NCBI GenBank assembly: GCA_028283825.1
Contig: JAPWJW010000001.1
Span: forward strand, 310,001 to 374,000
Length of the DNA stretch: 64,000 nucleotides
Origin: Azospirillaceae bacterium
Lineage (GTDB): Bacteria > Pseudomonadota > Alphaproteobacteria > Azospirillales > Azospirillaceae
Direction of reading: 5' to 3'
Positions 9,829 through 26,450 of the stretch are shown here, in pieces (position 1 is the stretch's first letter; each line of letters starts with the position of its first letter). The notes under the pieces are model-generated. The model did not search any database, was not told the origin of the DNA, and saw only the letters and a program-made list of their open reading frames with translations. The position numbers and the translations under genes are program-made.

Positions 9829-10812
9829 TTAGCCAGCCTCACCCAGCACCTGGGCGTAGAAGGCCGGGTCGACATTGCCGCCGGACAGCACCACGGCGAT
9901 GGTGCGGCCGGCGGTTTCCACCTTGCCGGACAGCAAGGCCGCCAGGGCCGCGGCCCCGCCCGGTTCCACCACCAGCTTCAGGTTGGCGGCGGCGAAGCGC
10001 ATGGCGGCCCGCACCTCCTCCTCCGTCACCACCAGGCCGGGGCCCAGCAGGGCCTGGGCCAGGGGGAAGGTGATGGTGCCGGGGATGGACGCCAGCAGGG
10101 CGTCGCACGACGATTTCCCGCCGGGCACGTTGGACAGCCGCTCACCGGCGGCCAGCGACCGCGCCATGTCGTCGAAGCCCTCAGGCTCCGCCGTGTGCAC
10201 GCGGGCATCGGGGAAGGTCTGCTTCAGGCCCAGCGCTGTGCCGGTGGCCAGGCCCCCACCGCTGCAATTCACCAGGCAGGCATCCACGGTCAGGCCCAGG
10301 GCGGCGGCCTGGCGGCCGATCTCCAGCCCCACGGTGCCCTGGCCGGCGATGATGTGCACGTCGTCGTATGAGGGCACCAGCACGGCACCGGTGCGGGTGC
10401 TAAGCTCGCGCCCGATGACCTCGCGATCCTCGGTCAGGCGATCGTAGAAGACGATCTCGGCCCCCAGCGCGCGGGTCCCGGCCGCCTTCACCGCCGGGGC
10501 GTCAGCCGGCATGACGATGGTGGCCTTGGTGCCCACCAGGCGTGCGGCCGCCGCCACCCCCTGGGCGTGGTTGCCGGATGACCAGGCGACGACGCCGCGC
10601 GCCCGTTCATCCTCAGTCAGGCGGCCCAGGCGGTTGTAGGCGCCGCGGAACTTGAAGGACCCGGTGCGTTGCAGCACCTCGGGCTTCAGCAGCACGCGAG
10701 CCCCCACGGCGGCATCCAGCGCCGCGTTGGTGATCAGCGGCGTCGCCACCGCCTTGCCCGCCAGCAGCTGCGCCGCCGATTCAATGTCCGCACCGGTGAC
10801 CGCCAAGCCCAT
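9829..10812 (-). CDS. PLP-dependent threonine/serine dehydratase family protein
   Basis: A 327-residue fold-type II PLP enzyme. The lysine motif TGSFKFRGA is present, with SSGNHAQGVA for phosphate and substrate binding and a glycine-rich SGGGLATG loop. Such enzymes deaminate L-threonine or serine to 2-oxo acids; without a C-terminal ACT domain it resembles the catabolic or short biosynthetic type. The ATG at 10812 is chosen because GAGGGG lies just upstream. It sits about 80 nt downstream of the last efflux permease on the same strand, so it may be read from that operon's transcript, though no functional link is evident. Its 3' end faces the SDR gene. Confidence 0.9.
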   Translation of the reverse strand: MGLAVTGADIESAAQLLAGKAVATPLITNAALDAAVGARVLLKPEVLQRTGSFKFRGAYNRLGRLTEDERARGVVAWSSGNHAQGVAAAARLVGTKATIVMPADAPAVKAAGTRALGAEIVFYDRLTEDREVIGRELSTRTGAVLVPSYDDVHIIAGQGTVGLEIGRQAAALGLTVDACLVNCSGGGLATGTALGLKQTFPDARVHTAEPEGFDDMARSLAAGERLSNVPGGKSSCDALLASIPGTITFPLAQALLGPGLVVTEEEVRAAMRFAAANLKLVVEPGGAAALAALLSGKVETAGRTIAVVLSGGNVDPAFYAQVLGEAG

Positions 10813-10893
10813 GACCCATCCCCTCATCCGAATCCGGGCCACAGGCTGGCATCGACGGGGCCGCTCACGCAAGCGGGCCGGTGCGGATGCCCG

Positions 10894-13323
10894 CTATTCG
10901 TACCGGAGCGCGTCCACCGGCCGCGCCGCCGCCACGCGGGCGGCGTGCCCCGCCACCGTCACCCAGGCGATCAACAGAGCCGACAGGCCGACAGCGGCGA
11001 AGACCAGGGGGTTCAGGGAGATATGCAGCACGAAGCCCGCCAACCAATGTCGCAGCTGCCACCAAGCCAGCGGCCAGGCGATCAGGTTGGCCAGCAGGAC
11101 GGGCTTGGAGAACTGCCAGACCAGCAGACGGATGATATCGACCACATTGGCGCCCATGACCTTGCGCAGGCCGATTTCCTTCGTGCGGCGTTCGGCGGTG
11201 AAGGCCGCCAGGCCAAACAGGCCCAGACAGGCGATGACCAAGGCCAGGCCGGTGAAGACACCCAGCAGCAGGGCCCGGCGGTGTTCATCCTCATACTGGT
11301 CCGCCAGCCTGTCCGTCAGGAAAGCGCGGACCATGGGCGCGTCGGGATACATGCCCCGCCAGAGCGCGTCGATGGCGTCCAGCGTGGCCAGGCCGGCGCC
11401 AGCAGCCAGCCGAACCGCCAAGGTCCGCTCATCCTCGGGATCCAGGACATAGACCACCGGCTGCGCCGCCATGCGGGCATCGGTGTAACGCACCTCATCC
11501 ACCACACCAACGATGGTCAGCGGATAGTCCTTGCCGAAGACCACCGTCTTGCCCACGGCATCCCGCGCGGTGGCGAAACCCATGCGCCGGGCCGCGTCCA
11601 AGGACAGGACGGTCGTCCTTCCCGCCGGGTACCGGTCGTTTTGCGCGTCCGCCCGCACCGCGTCCGCAGGCGACATAGCGTCGAACAGACGTCCGGCCAA
11701 CAGATGCACGTCCAACGTCTTCAGGACGTCGTAGTCCACCGTTTCCGTCCGCAGCGTCACTGATCCATGGTCGGGCGCGTCGGGCCGGCGGAAACTTTGA
11801 TGATCCTCATCGCCATCGCCCGGCATGTCGTGCGCCCCACCGGCTGCCGTGACGCCCTCCAGGCGCACCACCTGCTCACGAAAAGCCTTGAGCCGGGGCG
11901 GCTGCTCCTCAGGCCGGGGGAAACTGTCCCGCACGACCATCACACCATCGGGGCGAAAGCCGAGTGCCTGGAAACCGGCGTAGCGCGTTTGCTGAAAGAT
12001 GACGATGGCGGCGATGCCCAGCGCGATGCACGCGGCGAACTGGAAAACCACCAGGCCCGTGCGGAAGCTGGCGCCAAGGGCAACCCCTTCCTTCTTCAAC
12101 AGGGTGGTGGGGGCCGGGCGCGAAAGAACCAAGGCGGGGTAGAGTCCGCCCAGCAGGCCGACGGCGATGGCCCCGAAGACGTTGGCCGCCAGCAGCCAGG
12201 GGCTGACCAGGAAATCCATGTCCATACGAATATCCAGGACCCGCAAGAGGCCGGGCATGGCCAGTTCCAGCAGCGCCTGACCGACCACCATGGCGACCAA
12301 CGCCAGCAACACGGATTCCAGCAAAAATTGCGCCGCCACGGCCCGCCGCGCGGCACCCAGAACCTTGCGCACCGCCACCTCCTTAACCCGCAGGGTGGAA
12401 CGGGCGGTGGACAGGTTGACGAAGTTGGCGATAGCGATCAGCAGCACCATGGCCGCGACACCCAGAAAACCCTGAACACCGGCGCCGCCATTTCCCGGTT
12501 CAAGATGGATGCGCCGCAAGGGAAGCAGCGAAAGGGCGACAGTCCCCTTCCCGGTTGCGGTATCGAGGTAATCGGGAAAATGGGCGGCCAGAAAGGCGGG
12601 GAAGCGCGCCGCCAACGCCGATGGATCGGCGCCCGGCCGAAGTAGGACATAGGTTTCGACGAAATAACTGTCCCAGATCGTCGCCCGGCGGGCCAATACG
12701 TCATCGACACCGGTGTTCAGCCGGGTGTCCAGACGCGTGATCAGATCCCCCATCAACTGGCTGTTGCTGGGCCGGTCGCGCATCACCCCCGTGATCGTCA
12801 GGCTGGTGCCCGACGCCAGGGCCAGGACGCGGCCCACGGCATCTGGGGTTCCGAAATACTTGCGCGCCAGCCGTTCGGTCAACACGGCGGTACCCGGCCG
12901 ATCCAGCGCCCCCGCCGCGTCACCGGCCAGGAAGGGGGAATTGAACAAACGGAAATAGTCGGCATCGACCATGGCCACGACCTCCGAGAAGGAGGTGCCG
13001 TCCCGCACCACCGCCAGGCGTTCGTAATCCACCCGCACCGTCCGCTCGATTTCCGGACAATCGCCCGAGAGCGGGGCCGCCATGGGCAGTGACGTGACCG
13101 GATAGGACACCGGCGGCCGACCCTTCACATACTCCGTGAGCCCAAGCCGATAAATGCGGCCGGCGTCGCGGAAGAAGCCGTCGTAATGCGTCTCATGCCA
13201 GACGAACAGGCCGATCATGGACGCCGCCGCCAAGCCCAGTGCCAGGCCCATGACATTCAAGGCGGTATGGAGCCGCTGACGCAGCAGGATACGCAGGGCG
13301 ATGGCAAAAAGGTGTCGCAGCAT
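10894..13323 (-). CDS. MacB/FtsX-type ABC permease, copy D (last of the array)
   Basis: About 809 residues: an N-terminal helix, a large periplasmic domain, three FtsX helices (with REVAVRK-like EVAVRKVLGA), a middle helix, a second periplasmic domain and a second FtsX helix set containing RTKEIGLRKVMGA. It ends in ...VDALRYE like its neighbours. It is a permease without an ATPase domain; the ATPase is the separate gene at 22013. The ATG at 13323 lies 7 nt after the stop of copy C, so the genes are one operon. Such systems act on peptides, lipids or macrolide-like compounds with a periplasmic adaptor. Confidence 0.9.
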   Translation of the reverse strand: MLRHLFAIALRILLRQRLHTALNVMGLALGLAAASMIGLFVWHETHYDGFFRDAGRIYRLGLTEYVKGRPPVSYPVTSLPMAAPLSGDCPEIERTVRVDYERLAVVRDGTSFSEVVAMVDADYFRLFNSPFLAGDAAGALDRPGTAVLTERLARKYFGTPDAVGRVLALASGTSLTITGVMRDRPSNSQLMGDLITRLDTRLNTGVDDVLARRATIWDSYFVETYVLLRPGADPSALAARFPAFLAAHFPDYLDTATGKGTVALSLLPLRRIHLEPGNGGAGVQGFLGVAAMVLLIAIANFVNLSTARSTLRVKEVAVRKVLGAARRAVAAQFLLESVLLALVAMVVGQALLELAMPGLLRVLDIRMDMDFLVSPWLLAANVFGAIAVGLLGGLYPALVLSRPAPTTLLKKEGVALGASFRTGLVVFQFAACIALGIAAIVIFQQTRYAGFQALGFRPDGVMVVRDSFPRPEEQPPRLKAFREQVVRLEGVTAAGGAHDMPGDGDEDHQSFRRPDAPDHGSVTLRTETVDYDVLKTLDVHLLAGRLFDAMSPADAVRADAQNDRYPAGRTTVLSLDAARRMGFATARDAVGKTVVFGKDYPLTIVGVVDEVRYTDARMAAQPVVYVLDPEDERTLAVRLAAGAGLATLDAIDALWRGMYPDAPMVRAFLTDRLADQYEDEHRRALLLGVFTGLALVIACLGLFGLAAFTAERRTKEIGLRKVMGANVVDIIRLLVWQFSKPVLLANLIAWPLAWWQLRHWLAGFVLHISLNPLVFAAVGLSALLIAWVTVAGHAARVAAARPVDALRYE

Positions 13324-13330
13324 GATGCCC

Positions 13331-15793
13331 TTACTCGTACCGCAGCGCGTCAACCGGCCGCGCCGCCGCCACGCGGGCGGCATGCCCCGCCACCGTGGCC
13401 CAGGCGATCAGCAGCGCCGATAGGCCGGCGGCGGCGAAGACCAGGGGGTCCAGCTGGACGCGGTAGGCGAAGCCGCCCAGCCAGCGGCCCATCAGCACCC
13501 AGGCGACCGGCCACGCCACCAGATTAGCCACCAGCACGGGCTTGCTGAACTGCCATACCAGCAGGCGCACGATGTCGGCCACGGTGGCGCCCAGCACCTT
13601 GCGCAGGCCGATCTCCTTCGTGCGCCGTTCGGCGGTGAAGGCGGCCAGGCCGAATAGCCCCAAGCAGGCGATCAGGATGGCAAGGCCGGAGAACAGGGCC
13701 AGCAGGTCGCCCTGCCGCGCCTCGTCGGCATAAAGCTGGCGGATATGGTCGTCCAGGAACTCCCGCCTCAGCGGCAGGTCGGGGAACAGCTGGCGCCAGG
13801 TGTCGTCGATGGCCGCCAGGGTGGCGCCGTCGGCGTTGGGCGCCAGGCGCACCAGCAGGGCCGACAGTTCATCCCGCATGGCGAAGTACACTGTCGGCTC
13901 AAAACCCGACCGGGCGGTGCCGAACTGCACGTCATCGACCACGCCGATGACGGTCAGGACGGTGTCGCCGCCATACATCACCGTCCGCCCCACCGCCTGT
14001 TCCGCCGTGGCCAGGCCCAGGCGCCGCGCGGCGGTGATGGACAGCACGGCCGGGATGGCCGCATGGACGCCGCCGCTGGTCCCGGTGCGCAGCGCCGGCC
14101 GGCTGGTCAGGTCGCCGGGCCGCTGCCGGTCGAACAGGCGGCCGGCCAGCAGGGGAACGCCCAGGGTCTGCATATAATCCACATCCACCTGTTCGGTGCG
14201 GATCAGCAGGTCGGGCGTGCCGGCCGGCGTTTGCGGCAGGCGGTAGTTATTGGTCCATTCGCTATGGTCGCTGGGCAGGTTGGCCGTGGCCCCGGCAGCC
14301 GCCACGCCGGGGATGCGCAGCACCGCCTCACGCAGGGTCTGCACCCCCGCCTGGCCCGCCGGGCGGTCCAGCCCCCGCAGCACCAGCGCCCCGTCGGCCC
14401 GGAAACCCAGATCCTGGGTGCTGGCGTAGCGGGTCTGCTGCCCCATCACCAGGGTGGATATCACCAGGACGATGGCGGCGCTGAATTGCAACATCACCAG
14501 GACGGCACGCAGGCGCCCGCCCCCCGCCGCCCGCGCCTGGCGCAACAGGTCGGTGGGCCGGGGCCGCGACAGCACCAGGGCCGGGTATATGCCACCCAGC
14601 AGACCCACCAGCAGGGAAAGCGGCAGGGTCACGGCCATCAGCCAGGCGCCGGACAGGAAACCCGAATCCAACCGTGCGTCCAGCAAGGCCAGGAAGCGGG
14701 GCAGCGCCAATTCCACCAGCGCCAGGCCCAGTAGGCCGGCCACCAGCGCCAGCAGCACCGTTTCCAGCAGGAACTGCCCCACCAGCTGGCCGCGCCGGCC
14801 GCCCAGCGTCTTGCGCACCGCCACCTCCCGCGCCCTGAGCGCGCTACGGGCGGTCGCCAGGTTCACGAAGTTGACGACGGCGATGCCCAGCACCAGACAG
14901 GCCACGACCGCGAAGGTGGCCAGCGTGACGGGGGAGACGCCCAGGCCCTCCAGCGGATCGGTGTGCATGGCCGTCAGCGGTTGCAGTTCCAGCGTTTCCA
15001 CCAGGTCCGGCGCCACGTCGCCCAGCCCGGGGCGATAGGCGGCCAGCAGCGCGGGGAAACGGGGTGCCAAGGCAGCCGGGTCCACGCCCGGCTTCAGCAG
15101 GACGAAGGTTTGCATGAATTCACTGCGCCACTTGTCATCCTTGGCGGCGAAGTCGGCATCCCAACCGTCATTGAGGCGGGTCGTGATGTTGGTCCACAGG
15201 GTGACGGGGAATTCACGGGTGAATAGGGTGTTGGACGGCAGGTCGCGCACCACGCCGCTCACCACCAGGCCGACGCCGGAGGTCAAGGTCAGGGTGCGGC
15301 CCAGGGCGTCGGCGGTGCCGAAATGACGCCGCGCCTCGCTTTCCGTCAGCACCACGGTGCCGGGACGTTCAAGCGCCGTGGCCGGGTCACCCGCCAGGAA
15401 GGGGAAACCGAACAGGCGGAAGAAGGGCGCATCCACCAGGAAGATGCGCTGCTCCACCGGCGTGGGACCGTCGCGCAGCACGGTGGCGTGACGGACCACC
15501 CGCACCACCGTTTCCACCTCGCCCGCCAAATCCTGCGCCAGGGCGGGCCCCAGCGGCTTGGCCGTTTCCATGATGCGCTGGGTCGCATGCGCCGACTGCC
15601 GGGCCACGTTCAGCACGCGGAAGATGCGGCCGCCCTGTGGGTGGAAGCCGTCGAAATGCGTCTCATGCCAGACGTAGAGGCCCATCATGGCCGCCGTGGC
15701 GATGCCCAGCGCCAGGCCGGCCACATTCAGGGCGGTGTAGAGCCGCTGGCGCAGCAGCACGCGCATTGCGACCCGCAGATTATGAACCAACAT
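13331..15793 (-). CDS. MacB/FtsX-type ABC permease, copy C
   Basis: About 820 residues with the same two FtsX and two periplasmic domains as its neighbours; conserved blocks AREVAVRKTLGGRR in the first and RRTKEIGLRKVLGA in the second FtsX unit, C-terminus ...VDALRYE. GGGGAGG precedes the ATG at 15793, which is preferred over a GTG two codons earlier. Twelve nucleotides separate it from the stop of copy B. The periplasmic domains differ much more between copies than the membrane parts, suggesting divergence in partner or substrate recognition. Confidence 0.9.
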   Translation of the reverse strand: MLVHNLRVAMRVLLRQRLYTALNVAGLALGIATAAMMGLYVWHETHFDGFHPQGGRIFRVLNVARQSAHATQRIMETAKPLGPALAQDLAGEVETVVRVVRHATVLRDGPTPVEQRIFLVDAPFFRLFGFPFLAGDPATALERPGTVVLTESEARRHFGTADALGRTLTLTSGVGLVVSGVVRDLPSNTLFTREFPVTLWTNITTRLNDGWDADFAAKDDKWRSEFMQTFVLLKPGVDPAALAPRFPALLAAYRPGLGDVAPDLVETLELQPLTAMHTDPLEGLGVSPVTLATFAVVACLVLGIAVVNFVNLATARSALRAREVAVRKTLGGRRGQLVGQFLLETVLLALVAGLLGLALVELALPRFLALLDARLDSGFLSGAWLMAVTLPLSLLVGLLGGIYPALVLSRPRPTDLLRQARAAGGGRLRAVLVMLQFSAAIVLVISTLVMGQQTRYASTQDLGFRADGALVLRGLDRPAGQAGVQTLREAVLRIPGVAAAGATANLPSDHSEWTNNYRLPQTPAGTPDLLIRTEQVDVDYMQTLGVPLLAGRLFDRQRPGDLTSRPALRTGTSGGVHAAIPAVLSITAARRLGLATAEQAVGRTVMYGGDTVLTVIGVVDDVQFGTARSGFEPTVYFAMRDELSALLVRLAPNADGATLAAIDDTWRQLFPDLPLRREFLDDHIRQLYADEARQGDLLALFSGLAILIACLGLFGLAAFTAERRTKEIGLRKVLGATVADIVRLLVWQFSKPVLVANLVAWPVAWVLMGRWLGGFAYRVQLDPLVFAAAGLSALLIAWATVAGHAARVAAARPVDALRYE

Positions 15794-15805
15794 CGCCACC
15801 TCCCC

Positions 15806-18259
15806 TTATTCATACCGCAGCGCGTTGACCGGCCGGGCCGCCGCCACGCGCGCCGCGTGCCCCGCCACCGTCACCCAGGCGATCATCAACGCCGACAGCC
15901 CGGCGACGGCGAACACCAGCGGATTGATATCGACCCGGTAGACGAAGCCCGACAGCCAGCGGGCGGCGACGGCCCACGCGATGGGCCAGGCCACCAGGTT
16001 GGCTACCAGCACCGGCTTGCTGAACTGCCAGACCAGCAGGCGCACGATGTCCGCCACGGTGGCACCCAACACCTTGCGCAGCCCGATCTCCTTCGTGCGC
16101 CGCTGGGCGGTGAAGGCGGCCAGGCCGAATAGCCCCAGGCAGGCGATCAGGATGGCCAGGCCGGCGAAGGTGGCCAGCAGGACGGCCTGGTGTCGGTCGG
16201 CCGAATACGCCGCGCGGACGTTGTCGTCCATGAACTCCCGCTTCACCGGCAGGTCGGGGTAAAGCGCCTGCCAGGTCCGGTCAATGGCCGCCAGGGTGGC
16301 GGGACCGCTGCCGGCCGCCACCCGCACGGCCATGGTTTCCATCGCCTGGGGATAGATGACGTAGGCGGTGGGCTCCAAAACCTCGCGTGCCGTGCTGAAC
16401 TGCACGTCATCGACCACGCCGATGATGGTCAGGCCCGTGCGCTCCCCCATCACCAGGGTCCGGCCGATGGCCTGTTCCGGCGTGCCCAGGCCCAGGCGGG
16501 CCACGGTCAGGGCCGACAGGATGACACTGCCACCCAGAGGGGCATTGGGGTCTTCCGGCGGCTCGCCCCGGTCCAGGCGGGTATCCACGGCGTGGGCCGG
16601 GTCGAACAGCCGGCCGGCCAACAGGCGGATGCCCATGGTTTCCATGTAGCCCATGTCCACGCCCTCGGTCCGCAGGCGCAGCCAGCCCTCATGCGGCGCC
16701 TCCGGCAAATGGTAGGCGGAGAACCAGTCCGACCCGTCGGCCGGCGGCGCCTCCGTCCCGCCCGCCTGTTCCACGCCGGGCACGCGCAGCAGCGCCTGGC
16801 GCAGAGCATCCTGGTGGGCGTGGCCGGCGGGACTGTCCAGGCCCCGCAGCAGCACGACGTTCTCCGGCAGGAAGCCCAGGCGCTGGGTGGCGGCGTAGCG
16901 GGTCTGCTGCGCCATGATGGCGGTGGCGATCACCAGCACGATGGCGGCGGCGAACTGCACCACCACCAGCACGCCGCGCAGGGCGCCGCCCCGCATCATG
17001 CCCTCCCCGCCCCGCAGCAGGTCGGTCGGCAACGGCCGCGACAGGACCAGCGCCGGATACAGCCCGCCCAGCAGCCCGACCACCAGCACCAGGGGCAGCA
17101 GCACCGCCGCCACCCAGGCGCCGGACAGGAAGTGCTGGTCCATCCGCACGTCCAGCAGGGCCAGGAAGGACGGCATGGCCAGTTCCACCAGCGCCAGGGC
17201 CACCACGCCGGAAACCAACGCCAGCAGCACCGATTCCATCAGGAACTGCCCCACCAGATGCGCGCGCCGGCCGCCCAGCGTCTTGCGTACCGCCACCTCC
17301 CGCATCCGCAGGGACGAACGCGCGGTCGACAGGTTGATGAAGTTGACGATGGCGATGCCCAGGACCAGCAGCGCGATGCCCACGAAGGTGAACAGCAGGC
17401 TGAGCGGCACGCCATCCTCGCTGATGCCCTCGACATGGATGCGGGTCAGGGGTTGTAGGGCCTGGATGGCGACGGGCTGGCCGGTGGCGGCGTCCAGATA
17501 GTCCGTCATGCGGGCGGCCAGGAAACCGGGGAAGCGCGCCTGCAACTGGGTGGTGTCCACAGCGGGCTTCAGCAGGGCGTAGGTGCGCAGGAAGCTGTGC
17601 CCCCATTCACCGTCGGCGGTGGTGAACATCTCATCCCAGCCGTCGTTGAAGCGGGTCGCGATGTTGGTCACCATTTCCGGCCGCAGGACGGTGTTGGACG
17701 GCGGATCGCGCATCACGCCCGCCACCGTCAGCGTGACGCCGGAGGTGAGGGTCAGGCCCCGGCCCAGCGCCTCGCCCGTACCGAAATACTTGCGCGCCGC
17801 CGTCTCGGTCAGCACCACGGTGCCCGGCTGGGCGATGGCGGTTGCCGGGTCGCCTGAGAGGAAGGGCCAATCGAACAGGCGGAAATAGTCGGCGTCGGCC
17901 ACGGTGATTCGGGCCGCGAACACCGCGCCGTCGCGCCGCACCGCCACGCCGTGGCTCACCACCCGCACCACCGCCTCCATCTCCGGGAAGTCGCGGGCCA
18001 GGGCGGTACCCAGGGGCTTGGGCTGGGCCGCCACCGTCATGGGGGCGCCGCTGGGGGTGCGGTAGGTGCGCACGAGGCGGTAGATGCGGTCGCTGTGGCC
18101 GAAGAAGCCGTCATAGTGCATCTCATGCCAGACGCAGAGGCCGATCATGGCCGCCGTGGCGATGCCCAGCGCCAACCCCGCCACGTTCAGGGCAGTGTAC
18201 AGCCGTTGGCGCAGCAGCACCCGCACCGCCACCTTCAGGAAATTGCCCAGCATCCCCAT
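15806..18259 (-). CDS. MacB/FtsX-type ABC permease, copy B
   Basis: About 817 residues, same architecture as the other array members. REVAVRKTLGGRR and RRTKEIGLRKVLGA mark the two FtsX units, and the C-terminus is ...NALRYE. The ATG at 18259 is chosen because AAGGGGGA lies 7 nt upstream. It is preceded by the only sizeable gap in the operon (about 160 nt), which is filled with hairpins. Its N-terminal 40 residues are nearly identical to copy C, pointing to recent duplication or gene conversion. Confidence 0.9.
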   Translation of the reverse strand: MGMLGNFLKVAVRVLLRQRLYTALNVAGLALGIATAAMIGLCVWHEMHYDGFFGHSDRIYRLVRTYRTPSGAPMTVAAQPKPLGTALARDFPEMEAVVRVVSHGVAVRRDGAVFAARITVADADYFRLFDWPFLSGDPATAIAQPGTVVLTETAARKYFGTGEALGRGLTLTSGVTLTVAGVMRDPPSNTVLRPEMVTNIATRFNDGWDEMFTTADGEWGHSFLRTYALLKPAVDTTQLQARFPGFLAARMTDYLDAATGQPVAIQALQPLTRIHVEGISEDGVPLSLLFTFVGIALLVLGIAIVNFINLSTARSSLRMREVAVRKTLGGRRAHLVGQFLMESVLLALVSGVVALALVELAMPSFLALLDVRMDQHFLSGAWVAAVLLPLVLVVGLLGGLYPALVLSRPLPTDLLRGGEGMMRGGALRGVLVVVQFAAAIVLVIATAIMAQQTRYAATQRLGFLPENVVLLRGLDSPAGHAHQDALRQALLRVPGVEQAGGTEAPPADGSDWFSAYHLPEAPHEGWLRLRTEGVDMGYMETMGIRLLAGRLFDPAHAVDTRLDRGEPPEDPNAPLGGSVILSALTVARLGLGTPEQAIGRTLVMGERTGLTIIGVVDDVQFSTAREVLEPTAYVIYPQAMETMAVRVAAGSGPATLAAIDRTWQALYPDLPVKREFMDDNVRAAYSADRHQAVLLATFAGLAILIACLGLFGLAAFTAQRRTKEIGLRKVLGATVADIVRLLVWQFSKPVLVANLVAWPIAWAVAARWLSGFVYRVDINPLVFAVAGLSALMIAWVTVAGHAARVAAARPVNALRYE

Positions 18260-18315
18260 AGCGCGTTCCCCCTTATTCAATCGGGACCGATCAATCGTCC
18301 CCTCAGACGCCGGGC

Positions 18316-18417
18316 GCTGCCATACGGCAGCTTGGCTTCCTCACTGCGCCCTGCGGCGCTCGTTCCGGCGGACGCGGTCGCGTCCTACAACCGCATGAGG
18401 CCCTGCCTCATGCGGTT
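18316..18417. repeat. Cluster of four hairpins inside the permease operon
   Basis: Four perfect short palindromes follow each other: GCTGCC/GGCAGC (18316-18321/18326-18331), GCGCC/GGCGC (18346-18350/18355-18359), GGACGCG/CGCGTCC (18370-18376/18379-18385) and a 13-bp stem AACCGCATGAGGC with its complement (18389-18401/18405-18417). They lie just after the stop of permease A. This resembles a REP/BIME-type element and could stabilise the upstream mRNA or partly end transcription. Confidence 0.65.
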
Positions 18418-18421
18418 GGCT

Positions 18422-20887
18422 TTATTCGTAACGCAGGGCGGTGACCGGCTTGGCCGCCGCCACCCGGGCGGCATGCCCCGCCACCGTCACCCAGGCGATG
18501 CTGAGCGCCGCCAGGCCCGCGACCGCGAACACCGTCAGGTCCAGATCGACGCGGTAGGCGAAACCCTGCAGCCAGCGGTGCAGCAACAGCCAGGCGACGG
18601 GCCAGGCGATCAGGTTGGCCGCCATGACCGGCTTACTGAACTGCCAGACCAACAGGCGCACGATGTCCATGATGCTGGCGCCCAGCACCTTGCGCAGGCC
18701 GATCTCCCGCGTGCGCCGCTCGGCGGTGAAGGCGGCCAGGCCGAACAATCCCAGGCAGGCGATCAGGATGGCCAGGCCCGAGAAGCCGGCCAGCAGCACG
18801 CCCTGGCGCTGTTCGGCGGCATAGGTGTCGCGCACATGGTCGTCCAGGAACTCGCGGTTCACCGGGATGGTGGGGAAACTATCCTGCCACAGCCGGTCGA
18901 TGGCGGCCAGGGCGGCGGGACCGGCGGTGGGCGCCAGGCGCACGGCCATGACGTCCAGCCCGCGCTCATCCAACAGGAAGACGGTGGGCTGCAGTTCCGT
19001 GCGGGCGCTGTTGAACTGGACGTCGTCGATCACGCCGACCACGGTCAGGGGATAAGTCTTCTCCAAGATCACCTGCTGGCCCAACGCCGCCTCGGGTGAG
19101 GCGAAACCCAGGCGCTGCGCGGCGCGCAGGGACAGCACGGCGGTGCGGCCCGGCGGATCCTCGGCGCCCTTTTCCCGCTTTTCCTGGACGTCGGCGGTGG
19201 CGGTCCGGTCGAACAGCCGGCCGGCCAGCAGGCGCACGTTCATGGCCTGAAGGTAGTCGTACCCGATGGACTCGCTGCGGAAGACGATGCTGCCGTCGTC
19301 CACCGTGCCCGGCAGGTGATAGTTGGAGGTGCTGTCCGACCCGTCGCTGGGCATATGGTCGGCCCCGCCGGCGCCAATCACGCCGGGAATGCGCAGCAAA
19401 GCCTCGCGGAAACTGTCGATGTGGGTGCGGACCTCCGGCTGGTGCAGGTCGCGCATCAGCAGCACGCCGTCCGCCTGGAAGCCCAGCTGCTGGGTGCTGA
19501 CGTAACGGGTCTGCTGGAAGATGACGACGGTGGAGATGGCCAGCAGAATGGCGGCGGTGAACTGCAGCACCACCAGCAGGGTGCGCACGCCCCCGCCCCC
19601 CGCCGCCGCCGGCCCGCCCCGCAGCAGCACCGAGGGTGCGGGCCGCGACAGCACCAGGGCCGGATAAAGGCCGGCCAGGCCGCCGATCACCGCCACGCCC
19701 GCCAGTTCCGCCAGCACCAGCCAGGGGCTGGTGAGATAGCCGCGGTCGAAACGCACGCCCAGCAGCGACACGAAATAGGGCATGGCGACCTCCAGGATGG
19801 CCAGGGCCAGCATGGCCGACGCCAGGGTCAGCAGCGTGGATTCCACCAGGAACTGCGCCACCAGCATGCCCCGGTGGGCGCCCAGCGCCTTGCGCACCGC
19901 CACCTCCCGCGTGCGCAGGGAGGAGCGCGCGGTCGACAGGTTGATGAAGTTGATGACGGCGATGCCCAGCACCACCAACGCCACGGCCACCAGCCCGCGC
20001 AACACATCCAGCAAGGTGGCGGTGGCCCCGGTGGGATCGGTGTGGGCATGGGCCAGGCCCGTCAGCACCAGGGCCTTACCGGGCTTGTCGGTGCCGGACG
20101 CCAGGTAACCGGGGTCATTGGCGGCCAGGAAGGCGGGGAACTTGGCCGTCAGCGCCGCGGGATCGGTACCGGGCTTCACCAGGATGTAGGTGCGCAGGAA
20201 GTTGGAGTTCCAGCGCGTGTCCATGCGATTGAACCAGCCGTCGAAATTCTCCCCCAACCGCGTGGTGATCAGGGTCAGCATGGCGTCCCGCCGCAGGTTG
20301 GTGTTGGACGGCAGGTCGCGGATGACGGCGCTGACCGTCAGGCTGACGCCGTTGCTGAGCGTCAGCGTGCGGCCCAGGACGTTCACGTCGTTGAAGTATT
20401 TGCGCGCCAGCGCTTCGGGCAGGACGACGGTGCCGGGGCTGGCCAGCGCCGTGGCCGGATCGCCGGCAATGAAGGGCAGATCGAACAGCCGGAAGAAATC
20501 GCCGTCCACCACCATGACCCGTTCGCGAAAGACGCTGGCGTCGCGCGTCACCACCACCGGTTCGTTATGGACGCGCACCGCCGCCTCGATCTCCGGGAAA
20601 TTCTGCGGCAGCAGGGGGCCCAGGGGCTTGGTCGTGGAATCATAGGTGACGGGCGGCCGGCCGGGCACGAACTCCGTCTTGTCCACGCGGTAGATGCGGT
20701 CGGCCTTGGTGATGAAAGCGTCGTAGTGCGTCTCATGCCAGACATAGAGGCCCAGCATGCTGGCGGCCGCGATGCCGATGGCCAGGCCCGCCACGTTGAG
20801 GGAGGTGTACAGGCGATCACGCACCAGGATGCGGACCGCCACCGTCAGGAAATTCCCCAGCATCTTGAACATGGGCATCTTCAGCAT
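18422..20887 (-). CDS. MacB/FtsX-type ABC permease, copy A
   Basis: About 821 residues, the first full-length permease after the ATPase. Blocks REVAVRKALGAHRG and RRTREIGLRKVLGA identify the two FtsX units; the first periplasmic domain follows HETHYDAFI. The ATG at 20887 has AAGGGGG about 8 nt upstream; further in-frame ATGs occur 3, 5 and 8 codons later. It starts 13 nt after the stop of the truncated permease. A hairpin cluster follows its stop. Confidence 0.9.
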   Translation of the reverse strand: MLKMPMFKMLGNFLTVAVRILVRDRLYTSLNVAGLAIGIAAASMLGLYVWHETHYDAFITKADRIYRVDKTEFVPGRPPVTYDSTTKPLGPLLPQNFPEIEAAVRVHNEPVVVTRDASVFRERVMVVDGDFFRLFDLPFIAGDPATALASPGTVVLPEALARKYFNDVNVLGRTLTLSNGVSLTVSAVIRDLPSNTNLRRDAMLTLITTRLGENFDGWFNRMDTRWNSNFLRTYILVKPGTDPAALTAKFPAFLAANDPGYLASGTDKPGKALVLTGLAHAHTDPTGATATLLDVLRGLVAVALVVLGIAVINFINLSTARSSLRTREVAVRKALGAHRGMLVAQFLVESTLLTLASAMLALAILEVAMPYFVSLLGVRFDRGYLTSPWLVLAELAGVAVIGGLAGLYPALVLSRPAPSVLLRGGPAAAGGGGVRTLLVVLQFTAAILLAISTVVIFQQTRYVSTQQLGFQADGVLLMRDLHQPEVRTHIDSFREALLRIPGVIGAGGADHMPSDGSDSTSNYHLPGTVDDGSIVFRSESIGYDYLQAMNVRLLAGRLFDRTATADVQEKREKGAEDPPGRTAVLSLRAAQRLGFASPEAALGQQVILEKTYPLTVVGVIDDVQFNSARTELQPTVFLLDERGLDVMAVRLAPTAGPAALAAIDRLWQDSFPTIPVNREFLDDHVRDTYAAEQRQGVLLAGFSGLAILIACLGLFGLAAFTAERRTREIGLRKVLGASIMDIVRLLVWQFSKPVMAANLIAWPVAWLLLHRWLQGFAYRVDLDLTVFAVAGLAALSIAWVTVAGHAARVAAAKPVTALRYE

Positions 20888-20900
20888 CGGCAGGGCCCCC

Positions 20901-21941
20901 TTATTCGTACCGCAGGGCGGCAACAGGTTTGGTTGCCGCCACCCGGGCGGCATGGACGCCGACGGTGGCCCAGGCCACCAGCAGCGCCGACAGGCTGGCC
21001 GCCATGAACAGCAGCGGGTTCAGCGCGATACGATCAGCGAAACCGTCCAGCCAGTGGCGCATGGCGTACCAGGCCACCGGCCAGGCGATCAGGTTGGCCA
21101 CCAGCACCGGCTTGGAAAACTGCCAGACCAGCAGGCGCACGATGTCCATTACGCCGGCGCCCAGCACCTTGCGGATGCCGATCTCCTTCGTGCGCCGTTC
21201 GGCGGTGAAGGCGGCCAGGCCGAACAAGCCCAGGGCGGCGATGACGACGGCCAGGCCGGAGAAGGCGGCGAACATCTGGCCGGTCTTGGTCTCGCTGCGG
21301 TAGACGGTCCGCAACTGGTCGCCCAGCAGCAGGCGGGGCACCGGCTGGTCCGGCACCAGCTTCCGCCAGGCATCGTCGATCAGGCGTAAGGCATCGGGCA
21401 TTTGCCCCGGCTTCACCCGGATCAGCACCTGGCTGAAATCGCTGGGGTTCTGCACGAAGAAACCGGCCTCCACCGCGATGTGCAGGCTGCCCTGGTGGAA
21501 ATCCTCCACCACCCCCACCACCGTCAGGTCCACCGGCGCCGCCCCCACATTGCCGGGCAACACCAGGGGTTGGCCCACCGCGGCCTCGGGCGAGGCGTAA
21601 CCCAGGCGGCGCGCGGCTGACCGGTTAAGGACCACGCCGGCCCGGCGCGACCGCATGGGATCAGCCTTGTCCACCGCCGGGATGGCGTCGCCGGCGAAGC
21701 GCCGATCGAAGACGCGGCCCGCCAGCACCGGCACATCCAGCGTGGTGAAGTAGTCGTCATCCACCACGTCGCGGCGCAGCACCGCGGTGAAGCCCCGGTC
21801 GTAGGTCAGCTCGTTGCGCACGAACAGGCCGATCAGGATGGCCGCCGCCAGGCCCAGAGCCAGCCCGACCACCGTGATGGCGGAATAGAGCTTGTGCTTC
21901 ACCAGCGTGCGCAGGGCCACGGTCAGGTAGTTGGCGAACAT
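20901..21941 (-). CDS. Internally deleted MacB/FtsX-type permease (346 aa)
   Basis: This protein keeps the N-terminal membrane helix of the family (about residues 1-51, ending ELTYDRGF) and then jumps directly into the second periplasmic domain (DDYFTTLDVPVLAGRVFD) and the second FtsX unit (RRTKEIGIRKVLGAG, C-terminus ...AALRYE). Compared with its neighbours about 475 residues, covering the first periplasmic domain, the first FtsX unit and the middle helix, are missing, in frame. The result has four predicted helices, like a single FtsX/LolC-type unit. It retains a good ribosome binding site (AAGGGGGAG) and lies directly after the ATPase gene, so it is probably expressed. Confidence 0.85.
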   Translation of the reverse strand: MFANYLTVALRTLVKHKLYSAITVVGLALGLAAAILIGLFVRNELTYDRGFTAVLRRDVVDDDYFTTLDVPVLAGRVFDRRFAGDAIPAVDKADPMRSRRAGVVLNRSAARRLGYASPEAAVGQPLVLPGNVGAAPVDLTVVGVVEDFHQGSLHIAVEAGFFVQNPSDFSQVLIRVKPGQMPDALRLIDDAWRKLVPDQPVPRLLLGDQLRTVYRSETKTGQMFAAFSGLAVVIAALGLFGLAAFTAERRTKEIGIRKVLGAGVMDIVRLLVWQFSKPVLVANLIAWPVAWYAMRHWLDGFADRIALNPLLFMAASLSALLVAWATVGVHAARVAATKPVAALRYE

Positions 21942-22012
21942 GGGGCGACACTCCCCCTTCCGATAAAGGGCGGCGACAAACGGCGGGCATGGGCGGAACG
22001 GACGGCGCCGGG

Positions 22013-22693
<681 letters not shown>

Positions 22694-22745
22694 CGTGCCA
22701 TCCCCGTCTTCTGACTTGATAGATAAGGATCGTTCCGGATCCGGA

Positions 22746-24083
22746 TTAGTTTAGCTGTATGCGATCCATGCGGGCGAGGTCGCCGTAGGAGGAGACGATG
22801 ACCCGGTCCCCCGCCGACAGGCCGTCGCGCACCTCGATCATCTGGGCGTTGCGCCGGCCCAGATGCACGCGCCGCTTCTCGGCATAGGTACCGCCCGGCT
22901 GCACCACGAATATCCAGTCGCCGCCCGTATCCTGATAGAAGCCGCCGTTGGGGATCAGCAGGGCGGTGGTGGCCGCCCCCAGCTTCAGGCGCATCTGCAG
23001 GGTCTGGCCGCTGCGGATATCCTGCGGCGCGGCGCCCAGGAATTCCAGGTCCACCTGGAACTGGCCGTCATGGACCTGCGGATAAATCTTGGCGACCTTC
23101 AGCTTGTAGTCGCCGCTACTGCCGATGGCGGCCTCCGCCGTCTGGCCCAGTTCCAGGCGCGGCAGGTAGAACTCATCCATCTGGGCCTGGACCTTGAAGC
23201 CGTCGTCGCGGTCGATGCGGCCCAGGCGTTCGCCCTTCTGCTTGGTCTGGCCGATCTCCACATCCAATACGGTGATCTGCCCATCCACCGGCGCCCGCAG
23301 GATCAGGCTGTCCAGGTTCTTGCGCGCCATGGCCAGGTTTTCTTGCAGCTTCTGCGTGGATTCCTGCAACTCGCTGTACTGGCGGGCGCGCATGGCGTCG
23401 GTGGTGCGCATGGTTTCCAGCGTCAGTTCGCGCCGGCGCTGGTACCAGGTGATCTGGTCCTTGATGATATCGATGTCGCGCTGCGAGGCCGCCCCCGTCT
23501 TGATCAGCACGCTCTTGCGCTCCAAATCCTTGGACAGCCAGGAGACGTTGTACTCGCACTCCGCCAGCTCACGCTGGTTGGCCAGGCGGTTGGTTTCCAG
23601 TTGCAGTTCGGTGTCGTGCAGGCGGTTGATCTGTTCCATCACCTGCGCCTCGCGCGAGATGACGTCCAGCTGAAGCTGGGCGTTGGACAGTTCCACCAGC
23701 GGCTGGCCGGCGGTGACCTTCTGCCCCACCTCCACCAGCTTTTTCTCCACCCGCCCGCCCTCGGTGCTGTCCAGGTAGACGCTGTTCAGCGGCTCCACCG
23801 CGCCACGCACGGGGATGAAATCCTCAAACGTGCCCTGGGACACGGTGGCCACGGTCAGCCGCGCCTCCGCCACCCGCACGGTCTGGCCGCCCTGGTTCTG
23901 CGACCAGACGACGGCGCCGGCCACCGCCATCAGGGCCACCCCGGCGGCCCACAGGCGCCGGTCGGTGCGGGCACGGCGCACCCAGCCCTTCCAGCCCTTG
24001 GGCCTTTCCACCCGGCGGTCCATGCCCAGGGTGGCGACCCCCGGCGTGGCGGCGGCGGGACCGTTTCCCGGCGCGCCCATCAT
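22746..24083 (-). CDS. MacA/HlyD-type periplasmic adaptor protein
   Basis: About 445 residues: a cytoplasmic N-terminus, one membrane helix near residues 44-62 (RLWAAGVALMAVAGAVVW), a lipoyl half-motif, a long alpha-hairpin coiled coil with many Gln/Glu/Arg (roughly residues 150-265), the second lipoyl half (SLILRAPVDGQITVLDVEIG) and beta-barrel domains. Such adaptors bridge an inner-membrane ABC or RND pump to an outer-membrane channel; no TolC-like gene is in the window. The ATG at 24083 is chosen because it overlaps the stop of the preceding small ORF as ATGA. Confidence 0.92.
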   Translation of the reverse strand: MMGAPGNGPAAATPGVATLGMDRRVERPKGWKGWVRRARTDRRLWAAGVALMAVAGAVVWSQNQGGQTVRVAEARLTVATVSQGTFEDFIPVRGAVEPLNSVYLDSTEGGRVEKKLVEVGQKVTAGQPLVELSNAQLQLDVISREAQVMEQINRLHDTELQLETNRLANQRELAECEYNVSWLSKDLERKSVLIKTGAASQRDIDIIKDQITWYQRRRELTLETMRTTDAMRARQYSELQESTQKLQENLAMARKNLDSLILRAPVDGQITVLDVEIGQTKQKGERLGRIDRDDGFKVQAQMDEFYLPRLELGQTAEAAIGSSGDYKLKVAKIYPQVHDGQFQVDLEFLGAAPQDIRSGQTLQMRLKLGAATTALLIPNGGFYQDTGGDWIFVVQPGGTYAEKRRVHLGRRNAQMIEVRDGLSAGDRVIVSSYGDLARMDRIQLN

Positions 24084-24235
24084 GCCAGCGCACCCAAGCA
24101 ACGGACGACCACCACCACCAGGGCGCCGGCCAGCCACAAATCCGGATTGACCGCCAGCAGCGCATCCTCGATGCGCTCGATCAGGGGAACGCCTTGGGCG
24201 CCTTCCATATCCAACAGGACATCATTCCGGACCAT
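24080..24235 (-). CDS. Small single-span membrane ORF leading the efflux operon (51 aa)
   Basis: A 51-codon frame from ATG 24235 to TGA 24080 whose stop overlaps the adaptor ATG (ATGA). The first 30 residues are polar and acidic (VPLIERIEDALLAVNPD), and the rest is a hydrophobic helix (LWLAGALVVVVVRCLGALA). Its position between a sigma-54 promoter and the adaptor gene and the coupled start codon argue for real translation. It could be a small pump subunit or only a translational leader. No homologue is recognised; no strong ribosome binding site is seen. Confidence 0.55.
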   Translation of the reverse strand: MVRNDVLLDMEGAQGVPLIERIEDALLAVNPDLWLAGALVVVVVRCLGALA

Positions 24236-24320
24236 CTCAACAACCCCACTTCCCTTGTCCCCCGTCCGGGGGCGCCGCCCATGCCGGCGGCCAAAACGCG
24301 ACTATGATGGGGAAGGGATT

Positions 24321-24337
24321 GGCAAGGGGTGTGCCAA
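24321..24337 (-). promoter_or_regulatory. Sigma-54 (-24/-12) promoter of the efflux operon
   Basis: On the minus strand the sequence reads TTGGCACACCCCTTGCC, which fits the RpoN consensus YTGGCACGNNNNTTGCW at every strongly conserved base with exact -24/-12 spacing. Predicted start of transcription near 24310, about 75 nt before the small ORF. Such promoters need an AAA+ enhancer-binding activator; two candidate activator sites lie about 75-105 nt upstream. Confidence 0.8.
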
Positions 24338-24381
24338 GTGGGCAGTTTGTTGTTTCTCAATGGTTTGGGAAGACGCGCCGC

Positions 24382-24416
24382 GCGTTCGGATGCGGACAGT
24401 GTCCGGATGCGGACAC
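24382..24416 (-). promoter_or_regulatory. Tandem upstream activator dyads for the sigma-54 promoter
   Basis: GTGTCCGGATGCGGACAC at 24399-24416 is a perfect dyad (arms of 7, spacer GATG). A second copy at 24382-24399 matches it at 15 of 18 positions. Their centres are 17 bp apart, and together they lie about 75-105 bp upstream of the predicted transcription start, the usual place for NtrC-type activators. The cognate activator is not identified in this window. Confidence 0.65.
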
Positions 24417-25024: not shown

Positions 25025-26233
25025 TTAATATCCCGATGGCGGGTAGTTTCTATATAATTTCCCATGATTCCCCTCATAATAAGCAAGATTATTATCTCTT
25101 GCCGCTTCGTAATTCGCTATGCTACTCGCTCGCTCTTCTGTCATTTCTTTATTTTCTTTCATTAGATTATGCACTCTCTCATCTTGATATTTTATTATAT
25201 CTTTAGCGTTAAATGCCTTTGGTGTCTGTTTTGTTTTCAGAAAAAGAAATTGCTTCTCGCCACTTTGGAGAAATGACATGTTAATATTATAATCCATTAC
25301 CGTCTCAGTATCCCCGCCGCTAAACGACACACCCGTCAATCTACTGTCATACGGATGGGTGTGGATGGTGCCGACCAGGGTGTAATTTTCGGGGTCTTTT
25401 ATCTTCAGGTCCGGCAAGAATTCGCGATTTTTTTCGGAAGCCGGCCTGGGCAATCCCCCGATGTTCTGGAACTCCAAGGCACCATCTTTTGTCGCCACGA
25501 TGGTGGCACCCTGTTCAACAACCCATTCCTTCTGCCCCTTGGGTGGCGGAGCCCCGTTGGCGTTGCGCAGGGGTGCCAGGCTTTGCTCCCAGAACGTCTG
25601 GGATTGCTGGTCGAACGCTGGTGAGAATTGAAAGGACAGTGGCGCAGCCGCTGGCGAAGCGGGTAGGACGAAATCAGCCGCAGTGGCGTAGTGTGGCGCC
25701 GCCTGCTTGGGCGCGTCCTTCTTTTGCTTCGGCCTGGCGGTGGGCTTGACCGGCGCGGCCGTGCCTTCCTGTTTCGGCTTCTCCTCGATCGGCCCCGCCG
25801 CTTCCTCCCCCGCCCCGCCCGCGTCCGTCCAGCGCCCATGGTCGTCACGGGGTTGGTCGGGGCTGTACTTCGCCAGATTGTCATTGGCCTGGGCCAGGCG
25901 GACAGCCGCGTCCCAATCCAGCTCGGGCAGGCGCAGGTGCACGGCGCGGATCATGGCCTGGACCAGGTCGCCCCGGTTCAGCGCGTCGGCGATCTTGGCC
26001 AAGCCCGGCAGGACGGTGGCGCCCAGTGGGACGTCGAATTGGGCGTCCGGCGCGGCACCGGCATAGGCGCGCCGCAGCAGCACCGCCACCTCTGCCGCCG
26101 GGCGGGCCTGGAAACCACCCGCCCCCTTGGCCAGCAGGGGCACGCCGGCCAGGGCCAGGCCCTCACCCGTGCAACTGAGACCCAGGCCGCCGGACCCGGC
26201 GCCCAGACGATAACGACGCTGCCAGCCATCCAT
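25025..26233 (-). CDS. Polymorphic-toxin-like protein with C-terminal JAB/JAMM-type domain
   Basis: 402 residues. The GC-rich N-terminal 120 residues are helical. A YSPDQPRDDHGRWTD motif follows (residues 123-137), known from alphaproteobacterial phage-head/MuF-like and toxin proteins. Next comes a Lys/Pro/Ala-rich linker (140-200), then an AT-rich C-terminal third. The C-terminus has HTHP (291-294) and SGGD (305-308) preceded by E240, fitting the metal-binding JAMM pattern E...HxH...SxxD, though the spacing between HxH and SxxD is longer than usual. JAMM domains are isopeptidases or metallo-hydrolases. The ATG at 26233 is chosen because AAGGA precedes it. No signal peptide. Confidence 0.7.
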   Translation of the reverse strand: MDGWQRRYRLGAGSGGLGLSCTGEGLALAGVPLLAKGAGGFQARPAAEVAVLLRRAYAGAAPDAQFDVPLGATVLPGLAKIADALNRGDLVQAMIRAVHLRLPELDWDAAVRLAQANDNLAKYSPDQPRDDHGRWTDAGGAGEEAAGPIEEKPKQEGTAAPVKPTARPKQKKDAPKQAAPHYATAADFVLPASPAAAPLSFQFSPAFDQQSQTFWEQSLAPLRNANGAPPPKGQKEWVVEQGATIVATKDGALEFQNIGGLPRPASEKNREFLPDLKIKDPENYTLVGTIHTHPYDSRLTGVSFSGGDTETVMDYNINMSFLQSGEKQFLFLKTKQTPKAFNAKDIIKYQDERVHNLMKENKEMTEERASSIANYEAARDNNLAYYEGNHGKLYRNYPPSGY

Positions 26234-26450
26234 GACCCAATCCTTTGTTGATGAAGTGGCAACGTATGTTCTTTTTTTGTTCTTGTCAACCTGAGGAAGA
26301 TCACACAACTGAGAATTCTTCCTGCGAAGGTTGTTCCGGCAAGCGCGGCGGCGGCCGCGCAGGGGATATGCGCTTGACCTGGATCAAGGCCGCGCGGGGT
26401 GGAGCGGAGGACAAGAAGGGTCATCGTCATCGGCCCCAAGGTCACACCCC

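Follow-up and report, generated by a model that had tools for sequence, protein, structure and literature searches.

A sigma-54-type operon with one ATPase and five MacB/DarB-like permeases in Azospirillaceae, and its putative export regulon

How does an operon that carries five permease genes of the MacB/FtsX type manage with a single ATP-binding cassette (ABC) ATPase? The question is posed by a locus within a stretch of 64,000 nucleotides (positions 310,001 to 374,000 of contig JAPWJW010000001.1, assembly GCA_028283825.1; hereafter the window) from a soil bacterium of the Azospirillaceae with a genome of 7.16 Mb. We designate this source genome G000 and six further genomes of its genus G001–G006; L numbers denote fetched loci and C numbers contigs. 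The operon is real, well conserved and of a widespread but little-described kind, and its conserved sigma-54 promoter, upstream palindrome and unannotated 51-codon open reading frame (ORF) are new here. The reading that we favor, with a probability of roughly two in three, is that it belongs to a sigma-54/NtrC regulon whose interchangeable permeases, in cis and in trans, would be served by one ATPase and one adaptor. The operon would then form the core of a type VII (MacB/DarB-like) ABC export regulon that is under sigma-54/NtrC control and draws on a shared motor. This account draws on computed gene anatomy, conservation, constraint, shared cis-elements and phyletic co-occurrence. The features of the operon are as follows.

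24400–24415: palindrome TGTCCG-N4-CGGACA upstream of the adaptor, a putative NtrC-type activator site
24322–24337, minus strand: sigma-54-type promoter element TTGGCAC-N5-TTGC (GG-N10-GC)
24080–24235, minus strand: unannotated small ORF of 51 amino acids with one predicted membrane span, its stop overlapping the adaptor start (ATGA)
22746–24137, minus strand: periplasmic adaptor of the HlyD/MacA type, DarC-like (likely start ATG at 24083; HlyD_3; NF038010, 208.9 bits against a cut-off of 450)
22013–22693, minus strand: stand-alone ABC ATPase of the DarD/LolD/MacB type (NF038007, 281.9 bits against a cut-off of 375)
20901–21941, minus strand: P5s, permease with an in-frame internal deletion, 346 amino acids
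18422–20953, minus strand: P4, duplicated MacB_PCD-FtsX permease (likely start near 20887)
15806–18280, minus strand: P3, duplicated MacB_PCD-FtsX permease (likely start near 18256)
13331–15799, minus strand: P2, duplicated MacB_PCD-FtsX permease
10894–13383, minus strand: P1, duplicated MacB_PCD-FtsX permease (likely start near 13323)

The initial annotation had described one adaptor, one ATPase, four full-length permeases and one deleted permease on a single strand, and this gene set is confirmed for the minus strand. All five permeases contain MacB_PCD and FtsX domains above the Pfam cut-offs, as members of the type VII (MacB-like) ABC transporters do. P1–P4 measure 822–843 residues by first start codon and carry two MacB_PCD and two FtsX stretches each, again above the cut-offs; each full-length permease gene is an already fused permease pair. 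A simple hydropathy count gives 7 clear spans per full-length permease and 3 in P5s, where the domain plan predicts 8 and 4, one span near the C-terminus being weak. P5s retains its first membrane span, the latter half of PCD2 and the FtsX unit at the C-terminus, and its PCD covers only positions 93–200 of the 207 in the Pfam model; with a deletion seen in G000 only, it may be a regained MacB-like half-transporter or a decaying copy. The permease profile matches Protein Data Bank (PDB) chains of MacB, LolF, YbbP and LolC/E. Because a duplicated permease can be a whole membrane part, as YbbP is, the operon most likely provides one motor and several pump bodies that are each complete, rather than a pool of half-permeases. 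The initial annotation had offered a choice between several pumps sharing one motor and hetero-complexes. Sharing gains indirect support from the gene counts, coupling loops and shared cis-elements described below, and hetero-complexes are unneeded, since YbbP, in which one permease works with two ATPases, is a duplicated permease of the kind that every full-length gene here encodes.

When all 93 candidates in G000 were scored, one DarD-like ATPase gene was found at E ≤ 1e-80, the next best having 48% identity. The same genome holds eight full-length duplicated permease genes and one truncated gene: four plus P5s in the operon, and four orphans on contig C5 in two operons, one of three genes at C5:242–250 kb and one of a single gene at C5:344–347 kb. 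No cognate ATPase or adaptor lies beside either orphan operon in the fetched stretches. The idea that each permease has its own ATPase elsewhere is not borne out, as no second DarD-like ATPase was found in G000. Among 40 genomes, all 12 with such permeases also have an adaptor–ATPase cluster, counting G001, whose ATPase was not found and whose contig starts inside the first permease. Cis and orphan permeases have nearly the same C-terminal coupling loop, RRTKEIGxRKVxGA, and L031 is the clear outlier; the N-terminal loop is more variable, and in L002 and its relatives it is degenerate. Taken with constraint and regulation, the gene counts make a shared motor the most likely reading. The three-gene orphan operon (L001:5979–9367) adjoins an OmpR-type kinase/regulator pair and an S41-type peptidase-like gene. 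The latter is a possible candidate for a periplasmic partner, by comparison with YbbAP-TesA.

What might tie the orphan permeases to this motor is their regulation. Clusters were read in the genus (G000–G006), the family (G014, G017, G018 and G023) and the class (G037), and a sigma-54-type element was found by pattern in 10 of 12 upstream regions, the exceptions being G037 and a second adaptor–ATPase–permease set in G005. The upstream region of G001, which lies on another contig (L052), has the same features. In the window, a second copy of the palindrome with one mismatch stands at about 24383–24398, 17 bp away from the first. The promoter and the small ORF at 24080–24235, both overlooked in the initial annotation, define the start of the operon. 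Relatives of the small ORF are present in all seven genus genomes (in G001 via L052) and in G014, G017, G023, G018 (by eye) and G088. Within the genus its pooled ratio of nonsynonymous to synonymous substitution rates (dN/dS; all such values are simple pairwise estimates) is 0.37. It had no Pfam hit with two members submitted and no NCBIfam hit with one.

Seven TGTYCGNNNNCGRACA sites occur in G000, against two for a backward control pattern. One belongs to the main operon, two precede the orphan permease operons, three precede the sigma-54 promoters of small peptide pairs and one lies elsewhere. The chance of a site in a given 300-bp stretch is about 0.0003, and that of sites at all three permease operons about 2.5e-11, a rough figure for random placement. 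Of the 52 sites in the seven genus genomes, 41 fall at operons of these three kinds (7 at the main operon, 18 at orphan permeases, 16 at peptide promoters), the backward pattern giving 7 sites in total; assignment was by hand, and the orphan at C636 of G001 was placed from coordinates only. The palindrome is present in 14 of the 20 orphan permease operons fetched, and every one of these 14 has a GG-N10-GC element ending in TTGC 60–90 nt after the start of a palindrome (random windows, 113 of 2000). Three further orphan operons combine a one-mismatch palindrome with a sigma-54-like element; sites with at most one mismatch were found in 19 of 500 random 610-nt windows from seven loci, some of these windows including true sites. 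The main operon, most orphan operons and part of the peptide promoters combine GG-N10-GC with a common upstream site, as members of a regulon of sigma-54 and a bacterial enhancer-binding protein do. G018 has one more permease (L012:5243–7869) between its regulator genes and the main operon, and this gene carries a palindrome and a sigma-54-like element of its own.

The palindrome also occurs farther afield. In Chitinophaga arvensicola an orphan permease directly follows each of the three sites, the 8 kb fetched around each containing no match to an ATPase or adaptor, and in Massilia three of seven sites are at two adaptor–ATPase–permease clusters. Among the part of the Sphingomonas and Erythrobacter sites that was inspected, those of L124 and L132 belong to main clusters and one precedes a permease (L158); no permease follows the sites at L155, L156 and L157. 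In G000 the switch that governs the operon appears to act also on motorless permease operons and on arrays of small membrane peptides elsewhere in the genome, a hint that one motor may serve many pumps. A 2025 survey reports, in the parts available, sigma-54 enrichment of the permease group COG0577 in Gammaproteobacteria, Opitutia and Bacteroidia, and claims the first evidence linking sigma-54 to FtsX-like permeases (PMC12316311). In those same parts it works at the level of COGs, without an activator palindrome, orphan permeases that share a motor, or peptides. The literature searched, which covered few subscription papers, gave no description of the palindrome regulon, of orphan type VII permeases tied to one motor, or of the peptides.

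A candidate for the activator comes from the relatives, as genes for an NtrC-type regulator and a kinase adjoin the clusters of G018 and G037. The G018 regulator has a receiver domain, a sigma-54-interaction domain and a Fis-type helix-turn-helix, and its homologue in G000 (C1:2054578–2055996) is 76% identical and has a kinase gene adjacent. None of the 25 NCBIfam models shown is matched above its cut-off by the G000 protein; the PEP-CTERM response regulator (TIGR02915) was rejected as an identity at 359.2 bits of the 502.6 needed. We infer that this regulator binds the palindrome.

The third class of operons encodes small membrane peptides. In the genus these are mostly paired, an A type (45 residues) with a B type (41–53), behind a sigma-54 promoter; the palindrome, where present, is mostly 149–150 or 132–134 bp upstream. 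Two residues are invariant in the 22 aligned peptides, the initial methionine and a glutamate just ahead of the final hydrophobic stretch. The three G000 peptide promoters and their pairs of small ORFs lie at C3:44.6–47.6 kb, where transposase-like ORFs (by eye) split the third promoter from its pair (L036:8277–9235). Eleven of 12 further regions contain related peptides with sigma-54 promoters, the exception being the G000 region cut off by the insertion. Among 82 genomes of the family (35 ATPase candidates scored per genome), the peptide profile matches 20 and a close ATPase is present in 17, all of them within the 20 (Fisher p 7e-15, or 0.0014 by genus). Counted by genus, the two coincide completely: four genera have both and nine neither. 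The three peptide genomes without the close ATPase are G001, whose contigs break there, G090 and G094. No family match was found for the peptides in Pfam (six submitted), NCBIfam (four) or PHROGs (two), and none on plasmids for the one peptide tried. The profile recovered the known peptides in L036 and L050 as a control and found none in the fetched loci L084, L124, L126, L130, L132 and L150–L158, which come from Chitinophaga, two Sphingomonas, Massilia and Erythrobacter and hold 10 of 26 palindrome sites and a few more.

Judged from these sequences, the peptides may be cargo, subunits or merely co-regulated products of the regulon. In the boldest version, the one ATPase and the one adaptor would together drive export through a family of interchangeable type VII permeases encoded in cis and in trans, and the cargo lifted out of the inner membrane would be these undescribed hydrophobic peptides of about 45 residues, which come in pairs and belong to the same sigma-54 regulon. 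We consider this rather doubtful. With or without that step, the regulon brings to light an unannotated peptide family whose members are concrete candidates for a cargo or a partner protein. It is in this regulon and its peptides that the interest of the operon lies.

The steps that follow would account for the regulon; in them we infer that the ATPase is shared, where it docks, which adaptor and channel take part, and what the activator is and where it binds. An envelope signal would cause the sensor kinase to phosphorylate the NtrC-type activator, which would act on TGTCCG-N4-CGGACA palindromes and fire sigma-54 promoters at three kinds of operon: the main operon, permease operons without an ATPase, and arrays of single-span membrane peptides of about 45 residues. 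Each full-length permease, a pseudo-dimer, would make up a whole membrane part, and two copies of the single ATPase would dock as a dimer on its conserved coupling loops, chiefly the C-terminal one. Cargo would be selected by the variable periplasmic domains. The single adaptor would join the active permease to a TolC-type channel encoded elsewhere. The initial annotation had found no TolC-like channel at the locus, and indeed no OEP match occurs in the window; all 46 OEP domain matches of the genome lie outside it.

Several observations weigh against this reading. The role of the palindrome as an activator site is put forward from its conservation only. The seventh G000 site looks accidental, standing before what by eye is an elongation-factor-P-like gene; of the 52 genus sites 11 are without assignment (seven of these were inspected by eye), and one of the 11 lies upstream of such a gene. 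Three of the 20 orphan operons (L031, L032 and L034) have neither palindrome nor sigma-54-like element. In Chitinophaga arvensicola the backward control pattern also gives three sites, so that placement alone is telling there, not number. G005 carries a second complete adaptor–ATPase–permease set (L029 on C24), and private motors therefore also exist. The peptides raise doubts of their own: the palindrome is not found within 220 nt of every peptide promoter, and constraint is modest (pooled dN/dS of 0.53 over 22 distinct A-type genes, from non-independent pairs). G090 and G094 keep sigma-54-driven peptides with no ATPase at 1e-80 and no permease match at 1e-30, and no palindrome was found at their peptide promoters. 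These two genomes count against an obligate link between peptide and pump, though their peptide genes (L142 and L143) may belong to another regulon.

Two side observations touch these exceptions. The palindrome matches before the elongation-factor-P-like genes of G000 (L044:1922) and G005 (L045:1877) have similar surroundings, and no sigma-54 element was noticed there. The ATPase of L029 is 59% identical to that of the window and has only a one-mismatch palindrome upstream.

The alternative that survives best concerns the peptides alone, namely that they are unrelated to transport, stress-induced small membrane proteins that share the activator by chance. We rate its chances a little short of even. 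It would explain why G090 and G094 keep peptides without a close ATPase or permease and why the profile finds none in the pump loci outside the family (loci only). Their layout, an N-terminal part (basic in the A type) followed by one hydrophobic stretch, also suits a protein that resides in the membrane. It sits less well with the other 18 of the 20 peptide genomes, G001 included, all of which have the ATPase cluster, and with the further small membrane ORF inside the pump operon itself.

A second alternative bears on the motor. The orphans and some cis copies may not use the window ATPase at all, being served by other MacB/LolD-type ATPases or acting as ATP-free sensors or scaffolds; orphan permeases might thus use other ATPases or none. 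G000 holds 78 matches to other ABC ATPases, the name of the related ADOP family refers to permeases without adjacent ATPases, and L002 and its relatives have the degenerate N-terminal loop. We nevertheless think this unlikely, given that nearly all orphans retain the C-terminal coupling loop, that within the family orphan and ATPase operons have the palindrome and sigma-54 element in common, with the palindrome extending to a second phylum, and that the adaptor–ATPase cluster accompanies the permeases in each of the 12 genomes that bear them.

The permease copies are old, mostly intact and under purifying selection. A permease tree was built by a quick method with support from the SH-like approximate likelihood ratio test (SH-aLRT) only, using 78 of 83 rows (P5s, G001_L015_2, G002_L005_15696 and two G018 pieces were left out). 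In it each of P2, P3 and P4 is a seven-row clade with one member from every genus genome, and P5 is a clade of six rows; on these orthologous clades a recent amplification of P2–P5 is rejected at genus level. P1–P4 form a genus-specific clade against other genera; therefore part of the expansion took place inside the family. P1 is full length in two of seven genus genomes (G000 and G006 only), G002 having just a P2-like C-terminal fragment at about that place. P5 is whole in G002–G006 and among genus genomes internally deleted only in G000; in G001 the start of the contig truncates the closest P5 copy, with a second P5-like one behind it. Premature stops do not afflict most copies, which are open and conserved in relatives with the exception of P5s itself, the G002 fragment and a broken permease in G018. 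In the last of these, the final permease of the cluster is split into two open pieces (L012:15451–17805).

A domain-by-domain alignment and rate comparison showed purifying selection in periplasmic and FtsX parts alike. Median dN/dS of orthologues is 0.11–0.22 for the C-terminal membrane unit, 0.15–0.45 for the periplasmic domains and 0.18–0.32 for the N-terminal membrane unit, the highest value, 0.62, coming from a 36-residue stretch at transmembrane segment 5 (TM5) of P3. Between G000 paralogues the C-terminal membrane halves share 69–84% identity and the PCD2 domains 33–47% (all ten pairs); for the N-terminal membrane half and PCD1 the figures are 52–70% and 46–52% (six full-length pairs). 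The earlier statement that membrane parts are much closer than periplasmic domains thus stands for the C-terminal half and fails for the N-terminal one. Gene conversion was rejected as the cause of the similar C-terminal halves, as a DNA tree of these halves continues to group the copies largely by position, even if P4 of G000 lies apart from its group and several of the support values are low; this points to constraint instead. Ordinary tandem duplication, with one or two permeases active with the ATPase and the others spare or decaying and kept by drift, could draw on the large deletion in P5s, the patchy presence of P1 and the broken G018 permease, but is quite improbable in view of P2, P3 and P4 being open orthogroups in all seven genus genomes, of dN/dS well under 1 in the large domains, and of the multi-permease clusters in other genera and phyla.

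At the margins of the operon, the short intergenic gaps of the initial annotation (7–160 nt) hold, with figures of 6 to 165 nt once likely internal starts are used. Its range, taken to begin at 9829, begins too early: the gene at 9829–10872 resembles threo-3-hydroxyaspartate ammonia-lyase, in an NCBIfam match below the model's cut-off, and lies outside the operon. Upstream of the operon, a 427-codon ORF at 25025–26308 has no Pfam match at E 0.01.

Is the arrangement rare, as had been implied? The same cluster recurs with 3–5 permeases in other genera, and tandem permeases recur in other phyla. For a wider survey the best 80 of 582 relatives from an ATPase profile search were kept, mostly Bacteroidota by title, and the ORFs of their loci were scanned with permease, ATPase and adaptor profiles; 16 of the 80 ATPase blocks run off the fetched DNA. 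Among these best 80 of 582, 41 loci have at least two permeases in the ATPase block, 25 have one and 14 none, so that tandem permeases with one ATPase are widespread. The block contains one ATPase in 76 cases and two in 4, and an adaptor in 57. A response regulator like the system's own is present in 43 of these 80, and in 33 of 46 loci with full flanks, often divergent from the adaptor. Compared with relatives outside its family (loci L058–L137), the window ATPase reaches up to 70% identity to Bacteroidota and other phyla, versus 59–62% to Sphingomonas or Erythrobacter. This closer match to other phyla hints at horizontal transfer of the ATPase. MacB-like permeases without a neighboring ATPase occur here and in other phyla, and a regulator site in common gives a direct means of matching them to a motor. 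Should one ATPase and adaptor indeed power many permeases, the substrate range could widen by the mere addition of permease genes.

Among known systems, the multitask ATPases MsmX and MsmK each serve several sugar-importer ABC systems (PMC7658222, as far as its available parts go). These are type I importers, and no type VII exporter counterpart was found in the literature searched. The available parts of the work on YbbAP-TesA of Escherichia coli describe two ATPases, one permease and one TesA, with an internal symmetry that mimics the MacB and LolCDE dimers (PMC12646458). YbbAP-TesA resembles the operon here in having a duplicated permease with two ATPase subunits, and its permease gives a weak profile match to those of the window. 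It differs in that YbbP has 10 transmembrane segments and a periplasmic hydrolase partner, and no adaptor is named for it in those parts (PMC12646458). Against NCBIfam the permeases score best with ADOP, the ATPase with DarD and the adaptor with DarC, in each case under the curated cut-off. MacAB-TolC shares the PCD and FtsX domains and a related ATPase and adaptor. MacB fuses its ATPase to a single permease unit, which PDB chain lengths and match ranges are consistent with; in the operon the ATPase is separate and the permease duplicated, so that its proteins are not MacB proper. ADOP (TIGR03434) likewise has two PCD-FtsX units per chain and orphan copies. P1–P4 cover nearly the whole profile at 295–329 bits (best 328.7) against a cut-off of 622.3, which leaves them outside that family, and unlike it most permease copies in the window operon adjoin an ATPase. 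The darobactin exporter DarBCD (NF038007, NF038008, NF038010) has, in the arrangement of the dar cluster, a separate ATPase, an adaptor and a permease of about 780 residues. The operon resembles it in this and falls short of membership (ATPase, 281.9 of 375 bits; P1–P4, 47.5, 41.8, 58.6 and 63.4 of 700; adaptor, 208.9 of 450), and it differs from DarBCD in its several permeases and its sigma-54 regulon.

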